Shown in pieces: positions 13,005 to 31,370 of a stretch of DNA of 32,925 nucleotides; positions within the stretch are counted from its first letter, which is position 1; every line of letters begins with the position of its first letter. The translations under genes were made by a program, and so were the position numbers. The DNA comes from Methanohalobium sp. (GTDB lineage Archaea > Halobacteriota > Methanosarcinia > Methanosarcinales > Methanosarcinaceae), in assembly GCF_018609725.1 (NCBI RefSeq), contig NZ_JAHENT010000136.1, positions 1-32,925 of the forward strand, written 5' to 3'. The notes under the pieces are model-generated. The model did not search any database. It had not been told where the DNA came from and was given only the letters and a program-made list of their open reading frames with translations.

Positions 13005-13131
13005 AAATGTATTAATAGTATTGCATTTTATTCCATTTTTCTTTGATTGTTTTTCACTCCTGTAAATAAAACATATATAGCAGTTTCAATAATATTTAAA
13101 ATAACAAGTTAACAGGGTTACTCGTGCAAGG

Positions 13132-21904: not shown

Positions 21905-22840
21905 TTAGATATCTTCAAAATCAGCCATCTGAGTACTCAAATAGCGTTCACCAGTGTCGGGAAGAACTACAACGATTGTTTTATCTTTGTTTTCAGGTCT
22001 TCCGGCAACTTTCAACGCTGCACATAGAGCCGCACCAGATGAAATTCCTGCAAGGATACCTTCTCTTTTAGCCAATTCTCTGGCTGTTTCAAAGGATTCA
22101 TCATTACTAATCTGGATAATTTCATCTACAAGGCTAACATCCAGAATATCTGGTACAAATCCAGCACCAAGACCCTGTATTTTATGAGGACCAGGACTTC
22201 CGCCGGATAAAACAGGTGAATTTTCAGGTTCAACAGCTATGGCTTTAAACTCAGGTTTTTTTTCTTTTATAACATCTGCAACACCTGTAATAGTTCCGCC
22301 TGTACCCACACCAGCTACAAGTATGTCTACATCGCCTTCGGTATCATTCCAGATTTCTTCAGCAGTAGTTTTGCGGTGTATTTCCGGATTTGCAGGGTTC
22401 ATGAATTGCTGGGGTATAAATGCCTTATCGTATTCATTTGCCAGTTGGTTTGCTTTTTCAACTGCTCCATTCATGCCTTTTGAGCCGGTAGTAAGAACAA
22501 TTTCCGCTCCAAATAGTTTGAGGATTTTTCGCCTTTCTACACTCATAGTGTCAGGCATTGTAAGAATCAACCTGTACCCTTTGGAGGCACAGACAAAAGC
22601 CAGACCAATTCCTGTGTTTCCTGATGTGGGCTCGATAATAACAGTGTCACTGGTCAAACATCCGTCTTTTTCAGCGGATTCTATCATATTATAGGCTATT
22701 CTGTCCTTAACCGAGCTTAAAGGATTAAAGGATTCAAGTTTGGCAATTATTGTTGCCTGAGAGTCATCTGTTATATTGTTTAGCTGTATAAGCGGAGTAT
22801 TTCCAATTGTTTCTGTAATATTTGTATATATGTTCTTCAT
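21905..22840 (-). CDS. cysK: Cysteine synthase (O-acetylserine sulfhydrylase)
   Basis: [20 protein letters not shown] (PLP Lys), [37 protein letters not shown]. Confidence 0.95.
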
Positions 22841-22859: not shown

Positions 22860-23837
22860 TTATTTACGGTGTTTTTTATATATTAATTTAGGTTCTTCAA
22901 TAATTACGGTGTTATCTGGTGGAACTGATTTAGTAAGCCAAACGTTACCTCCTATGACCGATCGTTCACCGATCACAGTGTCCCCACCCAGTATAGTAGC
23001 ACCAGCATAAATGATAACATCATCTTTTATTGTAGGATGGCGTTTATGGCCACGTACTATGTTTCCAGTTTCATCCTTGGGAAAACTCATAGCCCCCAGT
23101 GTTACTCCCTGATAAATTCTAACATTGTCTCCAATTTGACAAGTTTCACCTATGACTACTCCTGTTCCATGGTCTATAAAAAAATGTTCTCCTATCTCAG
23201 CACCAGGATGAATATCAATACCTACAATACTATGGGCATATTCAGTCATAATACGCGGCAGAATTGTAATGTTTTGTTTATATAATTCATGTGCAATGCG
23301 GTAGATGGTTACTGCTAATACACCGGGATAACTGAATATTATTTCGTCGTAACTTTTAGCAGCTGGATCGCCCTCATAAGCGGCAAGAATATCAGACGCT
23401 AGTACTTCACGTAATTCAGGTATTTTTTTCAAAAAATCAAGGGTTTCTTTTTTTCCACTGGAGAGGCATTGAGAACATTTCTCTCCATAACGCTGGCAAT
23501 CATGCATGATACTATTAGCTATTTGCTTGGAAAGTTTTTCAAAAAGGTCATTAACTTCTCCCCCAAGTTGATAGGATAAATTTGCTCTGTCAATCACCTG
23601 ATTTTCAAAATATCCCGGATACAATATACGTTTTGTAATATCAATAATTTCAATGACAGCATCTCTTGATGGAATTATCGCAGCATCAACATGCTCAAAA
23701 CAAGCTTTTCTGGAACAACTTTCCACTATAGTGTCAACAACGTTTGGGATTTCTGCCCTGTATTCACTTTTGACATCATCTCCAATAAGCATGCATTTGT
23801 TTGAATTTGTATCTTGTTCTGTATTGCTGGTTGTCAT
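22860..23837 (-). CDS. cysE: Serine O-acetyltransferase, long (EpsC-like) form
   Basis: Left-handed beta-helix: GIDIHPGAEIGEHFFIDHGTGVVIGETCQIGDNVRIYQGVTLGA...RHPTIKDDVIIYAGATILGG. Confidence 0.94.
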   Translation of the reverse strand: MTTSNTEQDTNSNKCMLIGDDVKSEYRAEIPNVVDTIVESCSRKACFEHVDAAIIPSRDAVIEIIDITKRILYPGYFENQVIDRANLSYQLGGEVNDLFEKLSKQIANSIMHDCQRYGEKCSQCLSSGKKETLDFLKKIPELREVLASDILAAYEGDPAAKSYDEIIFSYPGVLAVTIYRIAHELYKQNITILPRIMTEYAHSIVGIDIHPGAEIGEHFFIDHGTGVVIGETCQIGDNVRIYQGVTLGAMSFPKDETGNIVRGHKRHPTIKDDVIIYAGATILGGDTVIGERSVIGGNVWLTKSVPPDNTVIIEEPKLIYKKHRK

Positions 23838-23904: not shown

Positions 23905-24111
23905 TTATTTAGCTTTATAGCCTGCATTTGAGACTGCTGATTTGATTTTATCAATATCTGTCTTTTCAGGGTCGTAATTAACTGTGGCACTACCTTCTTC
24001 AAGATTGATGTCTACTGATAATACCCCGTTAACAGAATTCAGAGCATTTTCAACATTTTCCTGACAACCAGCACATTTCAGTCCTTCTATTTTTATTGTT
24101 ACTTCACTCAT
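23905..24111 (-). CDS. Heavy-metal-associated (HMA) domain protein, CopZ-like
   Basis: VTIKIEGLKCAGCQENVENALNSVNGVLSVDINLEEGSATVNYDPEKTD; CxxC. Confidence 0.9.
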   Translation of the reverse strand: MSEVTIKIEGLKCAGCQENVENALNSVNGVLSVDINLEEGSATVNYDPEKTDIDKIKSAVSNAGYKAK

Positions 24112-24154: not shown

Positions 24155-24171
24155 AATTCACACTGTGAATT
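24155..24171. promoter_or_regulatory. Palindrome AATTCAC-ACT-GTGAATT upstream of the HMA gene
   Basis: Perfect half-sites; just upstream of the TATA-like stretch of the minus-strand HMA promoter. Confidence 0.55.
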
Positions 24172-24261
24172 TATAATCGATTCTAAAAGTTTATTGAAAT
24201 GCTGTATAGGTCGTTTTTATAAGCATATGGGTGTTAGTCTGCCAAAATTATAAATATCATG

Positions 24262-24289
24262 TTCACGATTGTGAATTCACATACGTGAA
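24262..24289. promoter_or_regulatory. Two abutting palindromes TTCAC-GATT-GTGAA / TTCAC-ATAC-GTGAA upstream of thi4
   Basis: Consecutive copies of the TTCAC-N4-GTGAA motif. Confidence 0.6.
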
Positions 24290-24370
24290 TAACTATTTAA
24301 TATCATATGGTAATGAAAGTTTGAAGATATGTCTACTTATCGTCTTGCATAAATTAGAGGTGAAATAAAT

Positions 24371-25153
24371 ATGGAAGAGTTTACAAAAATATCAGAAAAA
24401 GATGTAACAAACGCTATAATAGAAAATTTTACCAGCGAAATATTATCCTATACTTCCAGTGATGTTATTGTTGTAGGAGGTGGACCAAGCGGTTTAATGG
24501 CTGCCAGAACACTGGCAAATAAAGGAATTAAAACACTGGTTATCGAAAGCAACAATTACTTTGGTGGAGGATTCTGGGTGGGTGGCTACCTTATGAACAA
24601 ACTTACTGTAAGAGATCCCGGTCAAAAACTCCTTGATGAAATAGGTGTTCCATATGAAGAAGTAAAAGATGGGCTCTATGTTGCTAATGCACCATCTGCC
24701 TGTTCAAAACTGGTATCATCAGCCTGTGATTCAGGAGCATTTCTCCTTAACATGAATAAATTTGATGATGTAGTCCTTAAAAACGACAGTGTAGCAGGTA
24801 TCGTTACAAACTGGACACCGGTATCAGCACTTCCAAGAGCAATAACCTGCGTGGATCCGGTAGCCCTTGAATCAAAATGTGTTATTGATGCTACAGGTCA
24901 TGATGCTGTTGTAGCGGAAACTTTGAGATCAAGGGGATATATTGATTTGAAAGGATTTGATGGGATGCATGTAGAACCATCTGAAAATGCTATTGTTGAA
25001 CAAACATCTGAGATATATCCGGGGCTTATAGTAACCGGAATGTCGGTTGCAACTGCATTTGGACTGCCGCGAATGGGACCCACATTTGGAGGAATGCTTT
25101 ATTCGGGTGTAAAAGCTGCAGAAATTGCAGAGAAAGTGATAAAAAGTAAATAA
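24371..25153 (+). CDS. thi4: Thiazole synthase Thi4 (ribose-1,5-bisphosphate-type archaeal homologue)
   Basis: SDVIVVGGGPSGLMAARTLANKGIKTLVIESNNYFGGGFWVGGYLMNKLTVRDPGQKLLDEIGVPYEE; NWTPVSALPRAITCVDPVALESKCVIDATGHDA. Confidence 0.93.
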   Translation: MEEFTKISEKDVTNAIIENFTSEILSYTSSDVIVVGGGPSGLMAARTLANKGIKTLVIESNNYFGGGFWVGGYLMNKLTVRDPGQKLLDEIGVPYEEVKDGLYVANAPSACSKLVSSACDSGAFLLNMNKFDDVVLKNDSVAGIVTNWTPVSALPRAITCVDPVALESKCVIDATGHDAVVAETLRSRGYIDLKGFDGMHVEPSENAIVEQTSEIYPGLIVTGMSVATAFGLPRMGPTFGGMLYSGVKAAEIAEKVIKSK

Positions 25154-25249
25154 TCGTTTTTCCTAATTGTAGTTAAACGAATTATTTTATTTGCTGGTAT
25201 CATTCTGATACTGGTTTATTTATCACTATATTAAAACGGAGGTTTTTCA

Positions 25250-26350
25250 GTGACCGATTACTGGCTTGTGAGATATTCAGAGATTTTTTTAAAATCAAAC
25301 CATGTACAAAAACGGTGGGTCAATAAACTTGTAGATAATATATACAAACATATCCCTAACTGCCATGTCAGAACTGAAAGAGGAAGGATATGGCTTTATG
25401 GTGATGTAGAGCCTGAAAAGCTAAAAAATGTTTTTGGCATAAGGTCATATTCTCCTTGTATCTATTGTTCACTCGACGAATTAAATGAATGTTTACTTGA
25501 ATATTGTGAAAAAAAAAACCTTGGTGATGTACAAACTTTTGCACTTCGCATCAAACGTGTAGGTACTCATGATTTTTCATCACAGGATAAGGCAAGGGAG
25601 CTGGGTAATTTAATAAGGAAACATTATCCACATCTTAAGGTAGACCTTGATAGTCCAGAAAAGGAGATATTTATAGAAATAAGAGACAGTGATTGTTATC
25701 TGTTTTCTGAAAAAATAGCAGGTCCTGGAGGCATACCACTTGGTGTAGAGGGTAGCCTTGTTGCTTTAATGTCTGGAGGTATTGATTCACCTGTTGCCGC
25801 TTATATGATGATGAAACGTGGATGCAGTATTATACCTATCTATGTGGACATAGACCCGTATCTTGGAGAAAAAGGGAAAGAACGTGCATTTAAGGTTGTG
25901 GATGCTCTCAAGCAATATCAACCTGGTATAGAACTTGAAGTAATTAGTGATGATTACCTCTACAATGCTAAAAAAATACTTAAACAGTATAATTCTGATA
26001 AATACACCTGCCTTATGTGTAAACGTCGGTTATACCGGGTTGCAGAAGGTTTAGCGAACAAATACGGAGCACTGGGTATTGTAACAGGGGATTCACTTGG
26101 TCAGGTTGCATCTCAAACACTTGACAATCTTTATGTACTGGATGAAGCTACAAATCTACCAGTCTATCGACCGCTAATCAGTTTTGATAAAGAAGAGGTA
26201 ATTGATATTGCACGCAGGATAGGAACATACTCATTATCTACTATATCTACTGGTGGTTGTGGAGCTGTTCCTGAAAAACCAGCGACAAAAGCTAAATTAG
26301 ATATTGTAAAATCTTTTGAAAATATGTATAATGAACAGTTTAAGGTATAA
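25250..26350 (+). CDS. thiI: tRNA sulfurtransferase ThiI (THUMP + PP-loop, no rhodanese domain)
   Basis: VRYSEIFLKSNHVQKRWVNKLVDNI, LVALMSGGIDSPVAAYMMMKRGC, YTCLMCKRRLYRVAE, TGDSLGQVASQTLDNL. Confidence 0.94.
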   Translation: MTDYWLVRYSEIFLKSNHVQKRWVNKLVDNIYKHIPNCHVRTERGRIWLYGDVEPEKLKNVFGIRSYSPCIYCSLDELNECLLEYCEKKNLGDVQTFALRIKRVGTHDFSSQDKARELGNLIRKHYPHLKVDLDSPEKEIFIEIRDSDCYLFSEKIAGPGGIPLGVEGSLVALMSGGIDSPVAAYMMMKRGCSIIPIYVDIDPYLGEKGKERAFKVVDALKQYQPGIELEVISDDYLYNAKKILKQYNSDKYTCLMCKRRLYRVAEGLANKYGALGIVTGDSLGQVASQTLDNLYVLDEATNLPVYRPLISFDKEEVIDIARRIGTYSLSTISTGGCGAVPEKPATKAKLDIVKSFENMYNEQFKV

Positions 26351-26399
26351 TTTGCCTTATTCACTATTTTTATATACCAAAAAACCATTGCATTAAATG

Positions 26400-26413
26400 T
26401 TCACAATTGTGAA
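26400..26413. promoter_or_regulatory. Palindrome TTCACAATTGTGAA immediately upstream of tRNA-Cys
   Basis: Perfect 14-bp palindrome ending 8 bp before the tRNA; ~25-30 bp after TATATA at 26371-26376. Confidence 0.6.
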
Positions 26414-26421
26414 ATCCAGAT

Positions 26422-26492
26422 GGCTGGGTGGCAGAGTGGCTATGCATCCGACTGCAGATCGGGTTACGTGAGTTCGATTCTCACCCCGGCCT
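26422..26492 (+). tRNA. tRNA-Cys(GCA)
   Basis: GGCTGGG...CCGA-CTGCAGA-TCGG...GTGAGTTCGATTCTCACCCCGGCCT; discriminator U73. Confidence 0.92.
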
Positions 26493-26518
26493 TTTTAACT
26501 AAAATAGGATGAATCAAT

Positions 26519-27535
26519 ATGTATGAAATTGATAATTCTGATTTGGAGCTTACACCTGAAATCAAAGCATTTCTTGTAAGTATTGGGTCTGTACAGGTTG
26601 ACCTTTCAATTGAATTACCTGGACATACTACAACCGCAACTGCAGGACCGGGAGCAGGTGGAACATCTATATTTTTCAAATCCAACAATAGAAGAGTCCG
26701 TTTGTCCATCAACAATAAATCTCCTCTTTATCTTACAGAAAATGAAAATGTTGCAACTATAAGCTATAGAGGAAAACCGATTGTACGTGGTGAACTTGAA
26801 AAACCACTCTATCATTGTCCAAAACAGGCTTACATTACTATTTCTGAAAGTTGTATCTACAACTGTAAATTCTGTCCAGTACCAGAAATTCCTGGTGATG
26901 TAAAGGATACTGATACAATTTTAAAAATGGTTGATGAGGCGTATTCAACCGGTGAATTGGAGGCGGTGTCTCTTACCAGTGGGGTGGCGGAATCTCCGTA
27001 TAGGGAAGTAGAAAAAACAACAGAAATCGTAAAACAAATTTCAAAACGTTATGATATACCCATTGGAGTATCAGTTTATCCCACATGGACATCTACACAT
27101 GACCTTTTTGAAGTAGGTGCAACGGAAATCAAGTACAATGTAGAAACCATGGATATGTCGGTTTTTAAAAAAGTATGTCCAGATTTTGATTTAAGGCATA
27201 TACTTGATTCACTGGATGAAGCGGTAAATATTTTCGGTAAAAACCGCGTTTCTTCTAATTTCCTCATTGGATTGGGTGAAGATGATGCATGTGTCAAAGA
27301 AGGTGTAACTTTCCTTGCAAAAAAAGGTGTAATCCCGGTGTTGAGACCTGTATCCCCTGCATCATTACAAAGGAATGAAATATCTGCTAAAAGACCAGGA
27401 TTTGAGCGATTGTTGAAATTATCTCAAATGTCAAAGGATATCCTTGATAAATATGGATTAAGAGCTGATAGAGCAAAAACGATGTGTGTTCCTTGTACAG
27501 GTTGTGACATAACACCACACCATGATATCAGATAA
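26519..27535 (+). CDS. Radical SAM protein (methanogen type)
   Basis: SESCIYNCKFCPVPE (CX3CX2C), C-terminal CVPCTGCDITPHHD. Confidence 0.9.
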   Translation: MYEIDNSDLELTPEIKAFLVSIGSVQVDLSIELPGHTTTATAGPGAGGTSIFFKSNNRRVRLSINNKSPLYLTENENVATISYRGKPIVRGELEKPLYHCPKQAYITISESCIYNCKFCPVPEIPGDVKDTDTILKMVDEAYSTGELEAVSLTSGVAESPYREVEKTTEIVKQISKRYDIPIGVSVYPTWTSTHDLFEVGATEIKYNVETMDMSVFKKVCPDFDLRHILDSLDEAVNIFGKNRVSSNFLIGLGEDDACVKEGVTFLAKKGVIPVLRPVSPASLQRNEISAKRPGFERLLKLSQMSKDILDKYGLRADRAKTMCVPCTGCDITPHHDIR

Positions 27536-28286
27536 CGTTTATTCGTTTTTTACCTGTATAGATATTCATTTTCTTTCCTCTAACACGACCAATCAGGGTC
27601 ATCTTACACGATTGAGCTATATTTTTGGCAGTATCGGTTGTAGCTCCTTTGGATACTACAACAGGGACACCGGAAACAGCACATTTATAAACCATTTCTG
27701 AAGATATTCTTCCTGAAGACACAACAAAAGTGCTGGAAAAATCAATTTCTTTTTTTAGTCCGTAACCTATTATCTTATCAAGAGCATTATGTCTCCCGAT
27801 ATCTTCTGATATACAGAGATTTTCATCTTTTGAAAACATGCCTACTGTATGATTGCCTCTTGTTTTTTGATAAAGTTCTGAATCAAGGACAGTGTTAAGT
27901 CCATTGATAATCTCTTCAGGTTTTAGTATTAAATTGGATTCGATTTGTGGTAATTTTTTTGTATCCAGAAAAGTAGAAACTCCTCCACAACCGCTTGTGA
28001 TAGTTTTTCCGGAAAAAAGGATAGGATACGGGTTTTTTGTGTGAATATTGATTTCATTTTCATAAACCCGTATTGATTGGATTTCTTCATAGTTACCTAT
28101 TATTTTTTCTGTAAACAGGTGACCAATTGCAAATGAATCCAGCATATCGGGAGTTATCATTGCAGAGGTTGCATATCTGCCATTAATATAAACAGAAACT
28201 GGATATTCTTTAATGATTTCATGGCTGTTATAACTACATCCATTATCATCTATTGTTAAACAGTTGATTTTTTTTAACATATTCAT
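27528..28286 (-). CDS. fdhD: FdhD-family sulfurtransferase / accessory protein
   Basis: SFAIGHLFTEKII, TSGCGG, GMFSKDENLCISEDIGRHNALDKIIGYGL, SSGRISSEMVYKCAVSGVPVVVSKGATTDTA. Confidence 0.93.
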   Translation of the reverse strand: MNMLKKINCLTIDDNGCSYNSHEIIKEYPVSVYINGRYATSAMITPDMLDSFAIGHLFTEKIIGNYEEIQSIRVYENEINIHTKNPYPILFSGKTITSGCGGVSTFLDTKKLPQIESNLILKPEEIINGLNTVLDSELYQKTRGNHTVGMFSKDENLCISEDIGRHNALDKIIGYGLKKEIDFSSTFVVSSGRISSEMVYKCAVSGVPVVVSKGATTDTAKNIAQSCKMTLIGRVRGKKMNIYTGKKRINVI

Positions 28287-28292
28287 CGTTAT

Positions 28293-29096
28293 TTAAAGAA
28301 TCTCGTCCATACTACCACTGCGGTAACCCTCAATATCGACTGTTATATAGGTTATACCAAGATTTTTAAGTTCTGATACCACATTTTTTCTGTAGTTTAA
28401 AAAGGACTCCAGCTCTTTTTCCGGTATTTCTATTCGGGCTATTGCACCCTCACCATGTAACCTGACTCTCCCCTGGGTAAATCCGAATGAAGACAGTAGA
28501 TTTTCCGCCCTGTCAACATTTTTGAGTTTATCTTCTGTAAGGATTTCATTGTATGGTATCCGGGAAGCAAGGCATGCGGATGATGGTAAATTCCAGAAAT
28601 TATAGCCTCTTTTTTTTGCGATTTTTCGGATATCTGGTTTACTTATTTCTGCATCTACAAACGGATGTGCTATATCTTCTTCATCTCCGGCGGCAAGTCC
28701 TGGTCGATATTCACCAAGGTCTGAAAGATTTGTACCATCAGCTATACAATTAAATCCTATATTTAATGCATAGGATTTTAACAATTGTGATGAAGCCTTT
28801 TTACAATGATAACATCTATCTTTTGGGTTATTAACTATCCCGGATTTGCTAAGAGCTTTAAACGGTAATATTTCAAAATTTAAACCAAATTCATTTGCTA
28901 TTATTTTAGCCTGTTCTATACTGTGTTGGGGAACAAGCGGTGAATCAAGAAGTATGCACAGATGTTGGTTGCCGAGTGTTTCTTTTGCAACCAGAGAAAG
29001 CAGACTGCTGTCAACACCGCCTGAAAACGCTATAACCATTGGTCCTTTTTTAGCGATAACCTCTTTCAGTGTATCTACTGGTTCATAAGGGGTCAT
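28293..29096 (-). CDS. larE: LarE-family ATP-dependent sacrificial sulfur transferase (PP-loop)
   Basis: MVIAFSGGVDSSLLSLVAKE, NPKDRCYHCKKA, IADGTNLSDLGEYRPGLAA, SSACLASRIPYNE. Confidence 0.9.
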   Translation of the reverse strand: MTPYEPVDTLKEVIAKKGPMVIAFSGGVDSSLLSLVAKETLGNQHLCILLDSPLVPQHSIEQAKIIANEFGLNFEILPFKALSKSGIVNNPKDRCYHCKKASSQLLKSYALNIGFNCIADGTNLSDLGEYRPGLAAGDEEDIAHPFVDAEISKPDIRKIAKKRGYNFWNLPSSACLASRIPYNEILTEDKLKNVDRAENLLSSFGFTQGRVRLHGEGAIARIEIPEKELESFLNYRKNVVSELKNLGITYITVDIEGYRSGSMDEIL

Positions 29097-29120
29097 TTTT
29101 ACTCTGAATGTTTTGGTTGA

Positions 29121-29534
29121 TTATTCTGGTTTTTCTTCTTCTTTTTCTCCCCATAGTGAAAGGTTCTGTTTTTGACGGTAATCGTTAATAGCTTTATGGA
29201 TAGCTTCTTCTGCCAGAACTGAACAATGCATTTTTATTGATGGTAGACCTTCAAGTGCATCAGCAACAGCTTTGTTGGAAACATCCCATGCATCTTCCAG
29301 TGTTTTTCCTTTTATAAGTTCTGTAGCCATGCTGCTTGATGCGATTGCTGCACCGCATCCAAAGGTCATAAATTTTGCATCCTGTATTATATTATCCTCT
29401 ATTTTGAGATACATTCGCATAATGTCTCCACATTTCGGATTACCAACTTCCCCCACTCCGTCGGGATTTTCCATTTCTCCTACATTTCTTGGGTTCATGA
29501 AATGGTCCATTACTTTTTTACTGTACATTGCCAT
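29121..29534 (-). CDS. nifU: NifU/IscU-type Fe-S scaffold protein
   Basis: YSKKVMDHFMNPRNVGEMENPDGVGEVGNPKCGDIMRMYLK, FMTFGCGAAIASSSM, IKMHCSVLAEEAI. Confidence 0.94.
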   Translation of the reverse strand: MAMYSKKVMDHFMNPRNVGEMENPDGVGEVGNPKCGDIMRMYLKIEDNIIQDAKFMTFGCGAAIASSSMATELIKGKTLEDAWDVSNKAVADALEGLPSIKMHCSVLAEEAIHKAINDYRQKQNLSLWGEKEEEKPE

Positions 29535-29550
29535 AAAATATTCCTCTTTA

Positions 29551-30747
29551 TTATTTTGTAGCCATAGGTGACATTGAACGTAACCGTTCGATTATATTTG
29601 GTACTACTGAAAGCACATAATCCACATCTTCTTCGGTATTTTCTTTGCCCAGTGACAGACGAAGTGAACCATGGGCAATTTCATGCGGCAGACCGCAACC
29701 TACCAGTACATGGGATGGTTCAAGTGATGCGGATGTACATGCACTTCCTGTAGATGCTGCAATTGAATATGAATCAAGCATAAGAAGTATTGATTCCCCT
29801 TCTATATATTCAAAAACAATATTAACATTATTGGGCAATCTCTCTGTCGGGTGACCACAAAGATGTGTTTTCGGTATTTCCAAAAGTCCATTTATAAGGC
29901 GGTCACGTAGAGCTTGCATCCTTTTGGCATGGTTTTCTATATCACTTGTGACACGTTCTATAGCTTCTCCTAATCCAACTATTCCCGGAACATTTTCAGT
30001 TCCAGCACGGCGCTGTTTTTCTTGTGCACCCCCGTGCATGAAATTGTCAATTTTAACACCTTTTTTTATGTAAAGTGCACCAGTGCCTTTTGGTCCATAG
30101 AATTTATGACCTGATAATGATAGCAGATCGATGTTCATATCTTCTACATCAACAGGCACCTGACCTATAGCCTGGACTGCATCAGTATGGAAATATACAC
30201 CATTCTCTCTTGCAATCTTGCCAATTTCCTTAATTGGCTCAATGGTACCAATTTCGTTATTTGCAAACATTACGGTAATAAGTATGGTCTGGTCTGTTAT
30301 CGCATCCCTGACATCATCTACATTTACATGTCCATATTTATCAACTGGTAGATATGTAACATCAAACCCCTGTTTTTCAAGCCACTCACATGGGTGTAGA
30401 ACTGCATGGTGTTCAATAGCAGTAGTTATAATGTGGTTTCCTTTATTTTTGTTTGCAAAGGCAACTCCTTTGATTGCCCAGTTATCAGATTCCGTTCCTC
30501 CACTTGTAAAAAACACACTGTCGGTTTTGGCATTTATCGCATTTGCTACCTTTTCCCTTGCTTTTTCAATTGCATCTTCTGACTCTTTTGCAATTGTGTA
30601 TGGTGATGATGGATTTCCGAAATATTCTGTAAAATATGGAACCATTGCATTTACTACTTCTGGATCTGTATATGTAGTAGCGGCATGGTCCATGTAAACC
30701 AATTTTTGTCCTTCTTCATTGTTCTGCATAAACAACCTCATTATCAA
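29551..30747 (-). CDS. nifS: Cysteine desulfurase NifS/IscS
   Basis: VYMDHAATTYTDPEVVNAM, SGGTESDNWAIKG, SLSGHKFYGPKGTGALYIKKG, ASTGSACTS. Confidence 0.95.
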   Translation of the reverse strand: MIMRLFMQNNEEGQKLVYMDHAATTYTDPEVVNAMVPYFTEYFGNPSSPYTIAKESEDAIEKAREKVANAINAKTDSVFFTSGGTESDNWAIKGVAFANKNKGNHIITTAIEHHAVLHPCEWLEKQGFDVTYLPVDKYGHVNVDDVRDAITDQTILITVMFANNEIGTIEPIKEIGKIARENGVYFHTDAVQAIGQVPVDVEDMNIDLLSLSGHKFYGPKGTGALYIKKGVKIDNFMHGGAQEKQRRAGTENVPGIVGLGEAIERVTSDIENHAKRMQALRDRLINGLLEIPKTHLCGHPTERLPNNVNIVFEYIEGESILLMLDSYSIAASTGSACTSASLEPSHVLVGCGLPHEIAHGSLRLSLGKENTEEDVDYVLSVVPNIIERLRSMSPMATK

Positions 30748-30826
30748 TTATTGGTTTCAAATTAGTTATAATTTAATGTTGGTAAGCCAAAATCTTTATA
30801 CCATTAGATGTTTATAAGGTATATTA

Positions 30827-30838
30827 TCACAATTGTGA
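30827..30838. promoter_or_regulatory. Palindrome TCACAATTGTGA in the nifS/HTH intergenic region
   Basis: Perfect 12-bp palindrome; ATCACAATTGTGAAT, 11/12 or better match to the motif at 26400. Confidence 0.6.
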
Positions 30839-31025
30839 ATGCCATCTATATAATTAATGTGGTTTAAACGTTGTGGTAAGAGATGTTTTAATATAAACGC
30901 TGAAAATTTGTGGTAGTTAGTATATTTTATATAGCCAAAAATTATATGTCAGATGATATAAAATCTTATGTACCTACACTTCTGTGGATTACTGTTTACA
31001 TCCTTTAAAATAACCAAGTGATAAA

Positions 31026-31370
31026 ATGAAAATGAATACACCATGTCAGGTAATAGTATGGGACGTTCTTCCTGCTATCCGAGCGGCGCTTGCATCAGAA
31101 CTGGTTAAAAACGGAGTTTCTCAACGTAAAGTTGCAGAATTGTTTGATATGGCGCCCTCTGCTGTTTCGCAATATATAACCAAAAAACGGGGATATCGTA
31201 TTGAATTCGATGAAGATATTAAAAATTCTATAGCACAGCTTGCATCTGAAATTCAGAAGGGAACTGTAGATGATGTGTCCGACAAAATATGTGAAATCTG
31301 TAAACAGCTTAGAAGCAATGATGGAGGTTGTCCTACCAGTTCAAATAATAATGTAACACTGGTCAACTAA
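31026..31370 (+). CDS. HTH transcriptional regulator with C-terminal Cys motif
   Basis: LVKNGVSQRKVAELFDMAPSAVSQYITKKRGYRI (HTH) and CEICKQLRSNDGGC. Confidence 0.8.
   Translation: MKMNTPCQVIVWDVLPAIRAALASELVKNGVSQRKVAELFDMAPSAVSQYITKKRGYRIEFDEDIKNSIAQLASEIQKGTVDDVSDKICEICKQLRSNDGGCPTSSNNNVTLVN

Follow-up and report, generated by a model that had tools for sequence, protein, structure and literature searches.

Results

The stretch of DNA analysed here, hereafter the window, is the 32,925-nucleotide (nt) contig NZ_JAHENT010000136.1 (C136) of a Methanohalobium sp. assembly, GCF_018609725.1 (G000; 2,086,548 bases in 161 contigs, 97% complete), and it brings together genes for cysteine synthesis, iron-sulfur (Fe-S) cluster assembly and sulfur transfer, a tRNA-Cys gene and the gene of a small helix-turn-helix (HTH) protein, which we call HTH-A (Table 1). 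A palindrome with the half-site TTCAC, the consensus TTCACAATTGTGAA and the core TCACNATNGTGA recurs in the control regions of these genes. An earlier note on this DNA had reported five copies at four control regions, and all five were found in place. The HMA gene that it named beside one site does lie there but is not alone, as it heads an hma-cysE-cysK operon in which the assignment of cysE is partly inferential, drawn from hexapeptide repeats and position. The site that it ascribed to tRNA-Cys and a radical SAM gene is also present, but tRNA-Cys is more than the neighbour of that gene and is itself a conserved target. Separated from thi4 by 97 nt, thiI is its probable operon partner.

Table 1. 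Putative operators and genes of the window
Feature	Position	Strand	Basis or context
Putative operator TTCACACTGTGAA, TTCAC-ACT-GTGAA, 3-nt spacer	24157..24169	.	Promoter of hma-cysE-cysK (minus strand)
Putative operator TTCACGATTGTGAA	24262..24275	.	Promoter of thi4(-thiI)
Putative operator TTCACATACGTGAA, second, abutting the first	24276..24289	.	thi4
Putative operator TTCACAATTGTGAA	26400..26413	.	Between TATA box and tRNA-Cys, 8 nt before mature tRNA
Putative operator ATCACAATTGTGAA, one mismatch	30826..30839	.	Between divergent nifS and HTH-A
cysK, cysteine synthase A	21905..22840	-	TIGR01139
Probable cysE, serine O-acetyltransferase, hexapeptide-repeat protein	22860..23837	-	PF00132 repeats, next to cysK
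Small HMA-domain metal-binding protein	23905..24111	-	Family matches; first gene of hma-cysE-cysK
thi4, thiazole synthase	24371..25153	+	TIGR00292
thiI, tRNA uracil 4-sulfurtransferase	25250..26350	+	TIGR00342
tRNA-Cys (GCA)	26422..26492	+	Regulon member
Radical SAM protein	26519..27535	+	Family matches; immediately behind tRNA-Cys
fdhD sulfurtransferase	27528..28286	-	TIGR00129
larE-type sulfur transferase	28293..29096	-	TIGR00268
nifU/iscU-type scaffold	29121..29534	-	TIGR03419
nifS-type cysteine desulfurase	29551..30747	-	TIGR03402
HTH-A, 114-aa helix-turn-helix protein, proposed regulator	31026..31370	+	Small HTH gene divergent from nifS

The palindromes of the window are genuine and exceed chance. 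Motif counts were set against the reversed pattern, shuffles and the expectation from base composition: the window holds four exact matches to TTCACN3-5GTGAA where 0.15 are expected, a number that none of 100 shuffles reached, and the whole assembly holds eight exact copies of TTCACN4GTGAA, against about 2.3 expected from base composition and none for the reversed pattern. Maps of open reading frames (ORFs) place all eight between genes and seven of them at sulfur loci, and the result that the earlier note had named as counting against its reading, a motif just as frequent within genes and upstream of unrelated ones, was not seen. The core likewise occurs eight times (reversed control, two), with seven copies on C136 and a second contig, C109. 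An exact site before an S-layer-like gene (C152:1075) is probably due to chance, since the same letters lie within coding sequence of two relatives, and a copy of the core within an ORF on C79 was judged likewise. When one mismatch is allowed the excess disappears (56 against 85 in the control); informative sites are therefore confined to strict matches and those whose AT centre is conserved, and weak sites were not used. The earlier statement that the window has no other comparable pair holds for exact matches and fails for one uninformative one-mismatch palindrome, TTCACTCCTGTAAA (13053-13066), which is intergenic and lies upstream of UspA-like and arsenite-permease-like ORFs, so named by sequence reading alone. 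Another one-mismatch site, at C61:353, precedes a ferredoxin-like ORF.

Footprinting revealed conservation at the orthologous promoters of thi4, hma-cysEK, nifS/HTH-A and tRNA-Cys in a second genome of the genus (G005), as well as in other genera and another order, contrary to the second refuting outcome set by the earlier note, a lack of conservation at such promoters. The HMA site of G005 reads TTCACAGTGTGAA (L126:12603), its thi4 and nifS/HTH-A sites lie at L126:12498 and L126:6263, thi4 has a site in other genera too, and pairs of sites, abutting or close together, also occur in Methanohalophilus and Methanococcoides. In the Methanohalobium assembly, sites on C109 adjoin genes for a Na/sulfate-symporter-type carrier, an HTH protein (HTH_B), TusA, a sulfite-reductase-type protein and phosphoadenosine phosphosulfate (PAPS) reductase; further C109 sites precede a degenerate tRNA-Cys-like sequence and a gene pair that is cytochrome-c-biogenesis-like (ccm) by sequence reading alone, and a site on C22 precedes a HcyBio homocysteine-biosynthesis gene. 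Across genomes, sites are found, besides HTH-A, before nifS/nifU (with nadA in Methanosarcina-like genomes), thi4, a ThiF-like gene, larE, cysteine desulfurase-fdhD, cysK-cysE, an O-acetylhomoserine-sulfhydrylase-type gene and its neighbour, HTH_B/tusA/sulfite reductase/PAPS reductase, and thiM-thiE. Across many methanogens, the palindrome marks genes that serve the metabolism of cysteine, Fe-S clusters and sulfur, and the tRNA-Cys gene as well, and the single sulfur/cysteine regulon proposed in the earlier note is supported by both genome-wide and cross-genome evidence, at a larger size than claimed.

It is worth mentioning that the carrier, TusA, the sulfite-reductase-type protein and PAPS reductase form a sulfate/sulfite-assimilation cluster (C109, L045:8946-13598) in a methanogen of methylotrophic type. 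The radical SAM protein, whose homologs (about 50%) lie close to sites in other genera, recurs beside tRNA-Cys or tusA sites (window 26519-27535, L138:5094-6483), often with a JAB-domain protein, and is possibly an uncharacterised sulfur-transfer enzyme.

HTH-A, already suggested as the regulator in the earlier note, emerges as the best candidate by phylogenetic profile and by a conserved upstream site. Among 61 family genomes, the same set as for the motif scan, 34 encode a strong ortholog (E below 1e-20), and TTCACNATNGTGAA is present in 31 of these 34 and in none of the 27 others (Fisher p 2.6e-14, with no phylogenetic correction), a contrast that repeats within genera g6, g7, g11 and g14. 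Another regulator, for instance the winged-helix HTH_B of the C109 cluster, might bind the palindrome and HTH-A be merely one of its targets, since HTH_B is flanked by two sites and, in other genera, is often preceded by one. However, six genomes have HTH_B without the motif and fourteen have the motif without HTH_B, whereas the motif tracks HTH-A and precedes it in two orders; the phylogenetic profile leads us to reject HTH_B as regulator, and we regard an explanation of this kind as very unlikely. HTH_B was not found in the same-genus genome G005.

The same picture arises from 80 HTH-A loci of named genomes (1.05 Mb), which belong to Methanosarcinaceae (Methanohalophilus, Methanococcoides, Methanolobus, Methanosalsum, Methanomethylovorans) and Methanomicrobiales (Methanoregula, Methanoculleus, Methanospirillum, Methanomicrobium, Methanofollis and others). 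With a 4-nt spacer, TTCAC is the most frequent of all 1024 half-sites, reaching 71 copies spread over 49 loci where the next has 28. Of the 78 loci used for upstream counts, 54 have TCACNATNGTGA within 260 nt upstream of HTH-A, most commonly at about -60, with none for the reversed control; over all named loci the core is found 115 times against zero reversed, and the next-best palindrome of the same form reaches seven upstream of HTH-A. Most loci that lack it have variants at the same place, such as GTTAACAATTGTTAAC in Methanoculleus and TCCACAATTGTGAA in Methanolobus, and in Methanospirillum-like loci HTH-A is preceded by TTCAC-N3-GTGAA, the N3 form of the window's HMA site. One may object that the perfect 5-bp arms, 4 nt apart, might form RNA hairpins, or that such short half-sites are chance AT-rich repeats; yet upstream of HTH-A the half-site letters and AT centre mostly stay constant instead of covarying freely, the sites serve divergent promoters and lie near start sites, and the AT-centred pattern is missing from genomes without HTH-A, so that this explanation is strongly disfavoured and retains next to no weight. 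We consider it probable that HTH-A has the palindrome as its operator and thereby governs a sulfur regulon.

The tRNA-Cys of the window is the one intact copy in the tRNA census of this assembly. In named genomes, a palindrome lies within 100 nt upstream of 15 of the 18 tRNA-Cys genes near HTH-A, as opposed to 0 of 17 other tRNAs; the arrangement is seen in several genera of two orders, Methanomicrobiales included, and the palindrome typically starts 17-40 nt before the tRNA. Over all fetched loci, one of 88 other tRNAs has a pattern match within 60 nt: a Methanohalophilus tRNA-Val (L136:1307) with TTCACTTGGGTGAA 23 nt upstream, whose centre is not AT and which is possibly a chance match. Both A73 and G73 forms of tRNA-Cys are known in methanogens (PMC8762117). 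A73-type copies, read against G019, mostly lack a site, although a Methanosalsum copy has one at -74, and neither of the two G73 copies has one; because the discriminator call is ambiguous for Methanolobus copies (T is printed), the A73/G73 pattern is a lead only. As to other copies, the degenerate tRNA-Cys-like sequence of C109 (30485-30549, minus strand; L045:16486-16550) shows 80% identity, is not called by ARAGORN, has GCG as apparent anticodon letters and keeps its TATA box and palindrome, and the sole tRNA-Cys seen in G005 (L126:10331-10403) has a poorly paired acceptor stem (5/7).

HTH-A matches no Pfam or NCBIfam family above cut-off, family searches returned no Rrf2, ThiN or LysR match and a PDB sequence search gave nothing significant, so that none of the curated families, solved structures or literature searched covers it. 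Its AlphaFold model is a five-helix HTH protein. Three cysteines (C7, C89, C92) never vary among 60 sequences, and another (C102) is near-invariant with a shifting position; these residues suggest a sensor with a bound metal, an Fe-S cluster or reactive thiols, which is a reasonable guess as to the nature of HTH-A. A paralog (about 35%; C149, L250:503-871), present in most family genomes and different in function, has a PC, a CxxC and further cysteines. Alternatively, HTH-A could resemble ThiR, the archaeal thiamine regulator (Rodionov et al. 2017, J Bacteriol, as cited in PMC12029414), with a mainly thiamine-related regulon. Sites do precede thi4 and thiM/thiE. ThiR motifs are palindromic and its N-terminal HTH is related, but HTH-A, at 114 amino acids, has no ThiN domain and its putative targets are mostly cysteine, Fe-S and sulfur genes and tRNA-Cys, which makes a ThiR-like role highly improbable.

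At promoters with a clear TATA box, the palindrome is mostly found downstream of the box, on or close to the start site. At tRNA-Cys, HTH_B and the degenerate tRNA-Cys, 23-27 nt separate the end of a TATA-like box from the site (23 nt at the window tRNA-Cys), a spacing that puts the site over the transcription start, likely so for the window tRNA-Cys; this distance is 5-11 nt at thi4, ccm, hcyBio and the carrier. From this position downstream of the box we infer repression as the mode of control. HTH-A might instead bind the palindrome and mainly activate, or sense iron or redox state rather than sulfur: its cysteines are conserved, nifSU and Fe-S enzymes (NadA, radical SAM, sulfite reductase) are among the targets, and the geometry is ambiguous at some promoters. 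The location of most sites downstream of the TATA box argues against an activator, and genes for cysteine synthase, sulfhydrylase, carrier and tRNA-Cys fit sulfur/cysteine supply better than iron; we hold this variant to be unlikely, while giving it some weight.

Discussion

Taken together, our analyses lead us to propose that HTH-A binds the palindrome, probably as a dimer, and would control its own gene as well as cysE-cysK, thi4-thiI, nifS-nifU-larE-fdhD, the remote sulfate/sulfite-assimilation cluster, the homocysteine-biosynthesis gene and tRNA-Cys. It would mostly repress, with relief when reduced sulfur or cysteine is scarce, and may sense sulfur, cysteine or Fe-S status through its conserved cysteines, while its action on the tRNA-Cys gene would adjust the level of this tRNA to sulfur supply. 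Several observations weigh against this proposal. Three HTH-A genomes lack exact sites; two of the exact-site-negative genomes are G031, which has a relaxed site, and G060, matched by a Methanolobus vulcani locus that has one as well. Some tRNA-Cys genes in HTH-A genomes have no site within 100 nt. The AlphaFold confidence is moderate (predicted local distance difference test, pLDDT, 76), a Foldseek search with the model gave only non-significant HTH matches, and the cysteine motif, shared by the paralog, is not specific to sulfur sensing. Finally, the relation of site and TATA box is ambiguous at the nifS, tusA and hma promoters, and the direction of control is read solely from site position.

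With these reservations, we somewhat favour the broader view that HTH-A founds an unnamed archaeal family of sulfur/cysteine or Fe-S sensors, present in Methanosarcinaceae and Methanomicrobiales, which would directly control tRNA-Cys transcription along with sulfur assimilation, cysteine synthesis and Fe-S assembly. A dedicated transcription factor on a single tRNA gene, conserved in two orders, is unusual; were it confirmed, the supply of one tRNA would be set by a dedicated metabolic regulator, and where a second A73- or G73-type tRNA-Cys mostly lacks the site, the balance of tRNA-Cys isoacceptors would shift too. In many methanogens tRNA-Cys also serves as the carrier on which cysteine is made by the tRNA-dependent route. 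Its control bears on the open question of how cysteinyl-tRNA synthetase (CysRS) and SepRS/SepCysS share tRNA-Cys isoacceptors (PMC8762117).

The regulation of sulfur, cysteine and Fe-S supply in methanogens is poorly known. Our literature search found nothing on a methanogen sulfur regulon or on COG2522 in archaea, which is weak evidence as most subscription papers, and RegPrecise, lay outside its scope; a search for the operator letters returned unrelated papers only, and in a study of the ISC system of M. acetivorans (PMC7585200) the passages covered name no regulator and a text search for one found none. We thus found no earlier description of the sulfur-control switch that the palindrome appears to mark. 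The regulon can now be linked to a specific candidate regulator, and a tRNA gene is unexpectedly among its putative targets; with a defined operator, a candidate protein and a target list the question becomes directly testable.

Compared with known systems, HTH-A recalls IscR, the bacterial Fe-S-sensing regulator of isc genes, in being a small HTH regulator beside nifS/iscS-nifU/iscU with conserved cysteines and, by its inferred site, autoregulation. IscR, however, is an Rrf2-family winged helix with a [2Fe-2S] cluster, whereas HTH-A has no Rrf2 match, shows conserved cysteines that may or may not hold a cluster, and would reach cysteine synthesis, sulfate assimilation and tRNA-Cys. The bacterial cysteine and sulfur regulators CysB, CymR and CysR share with the HTH-A regulon cysteine synthase, PAPS and sulfite reduction and carriers, but their architecture is unrelated: in HTH-A, 114 amino acids long and with putative operators at archaeal TATA promoters, no effector domain is seen, nor any match to LysR, the type of the CysB effector domain. 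Among archaea, ThiR is an HTH protein with palindromic, lineage-specific operators and a ThiN effector domain; some thiamine genes are common to both regulons, while HTH-A lacks ThiN. SurR of Thermococcales is a sulfur-responsive HTH regulator with cysteine-based sensing, but its operator, GTTn3AAC, differs from TTCACN4GTGAA, as do its targets. MsvR, a redox regulator with cysteine-based sensing, resembles HTH-A as a methanogen regulator with cysteines and differs from it in protein family and in its site, TTCG...CGAA.

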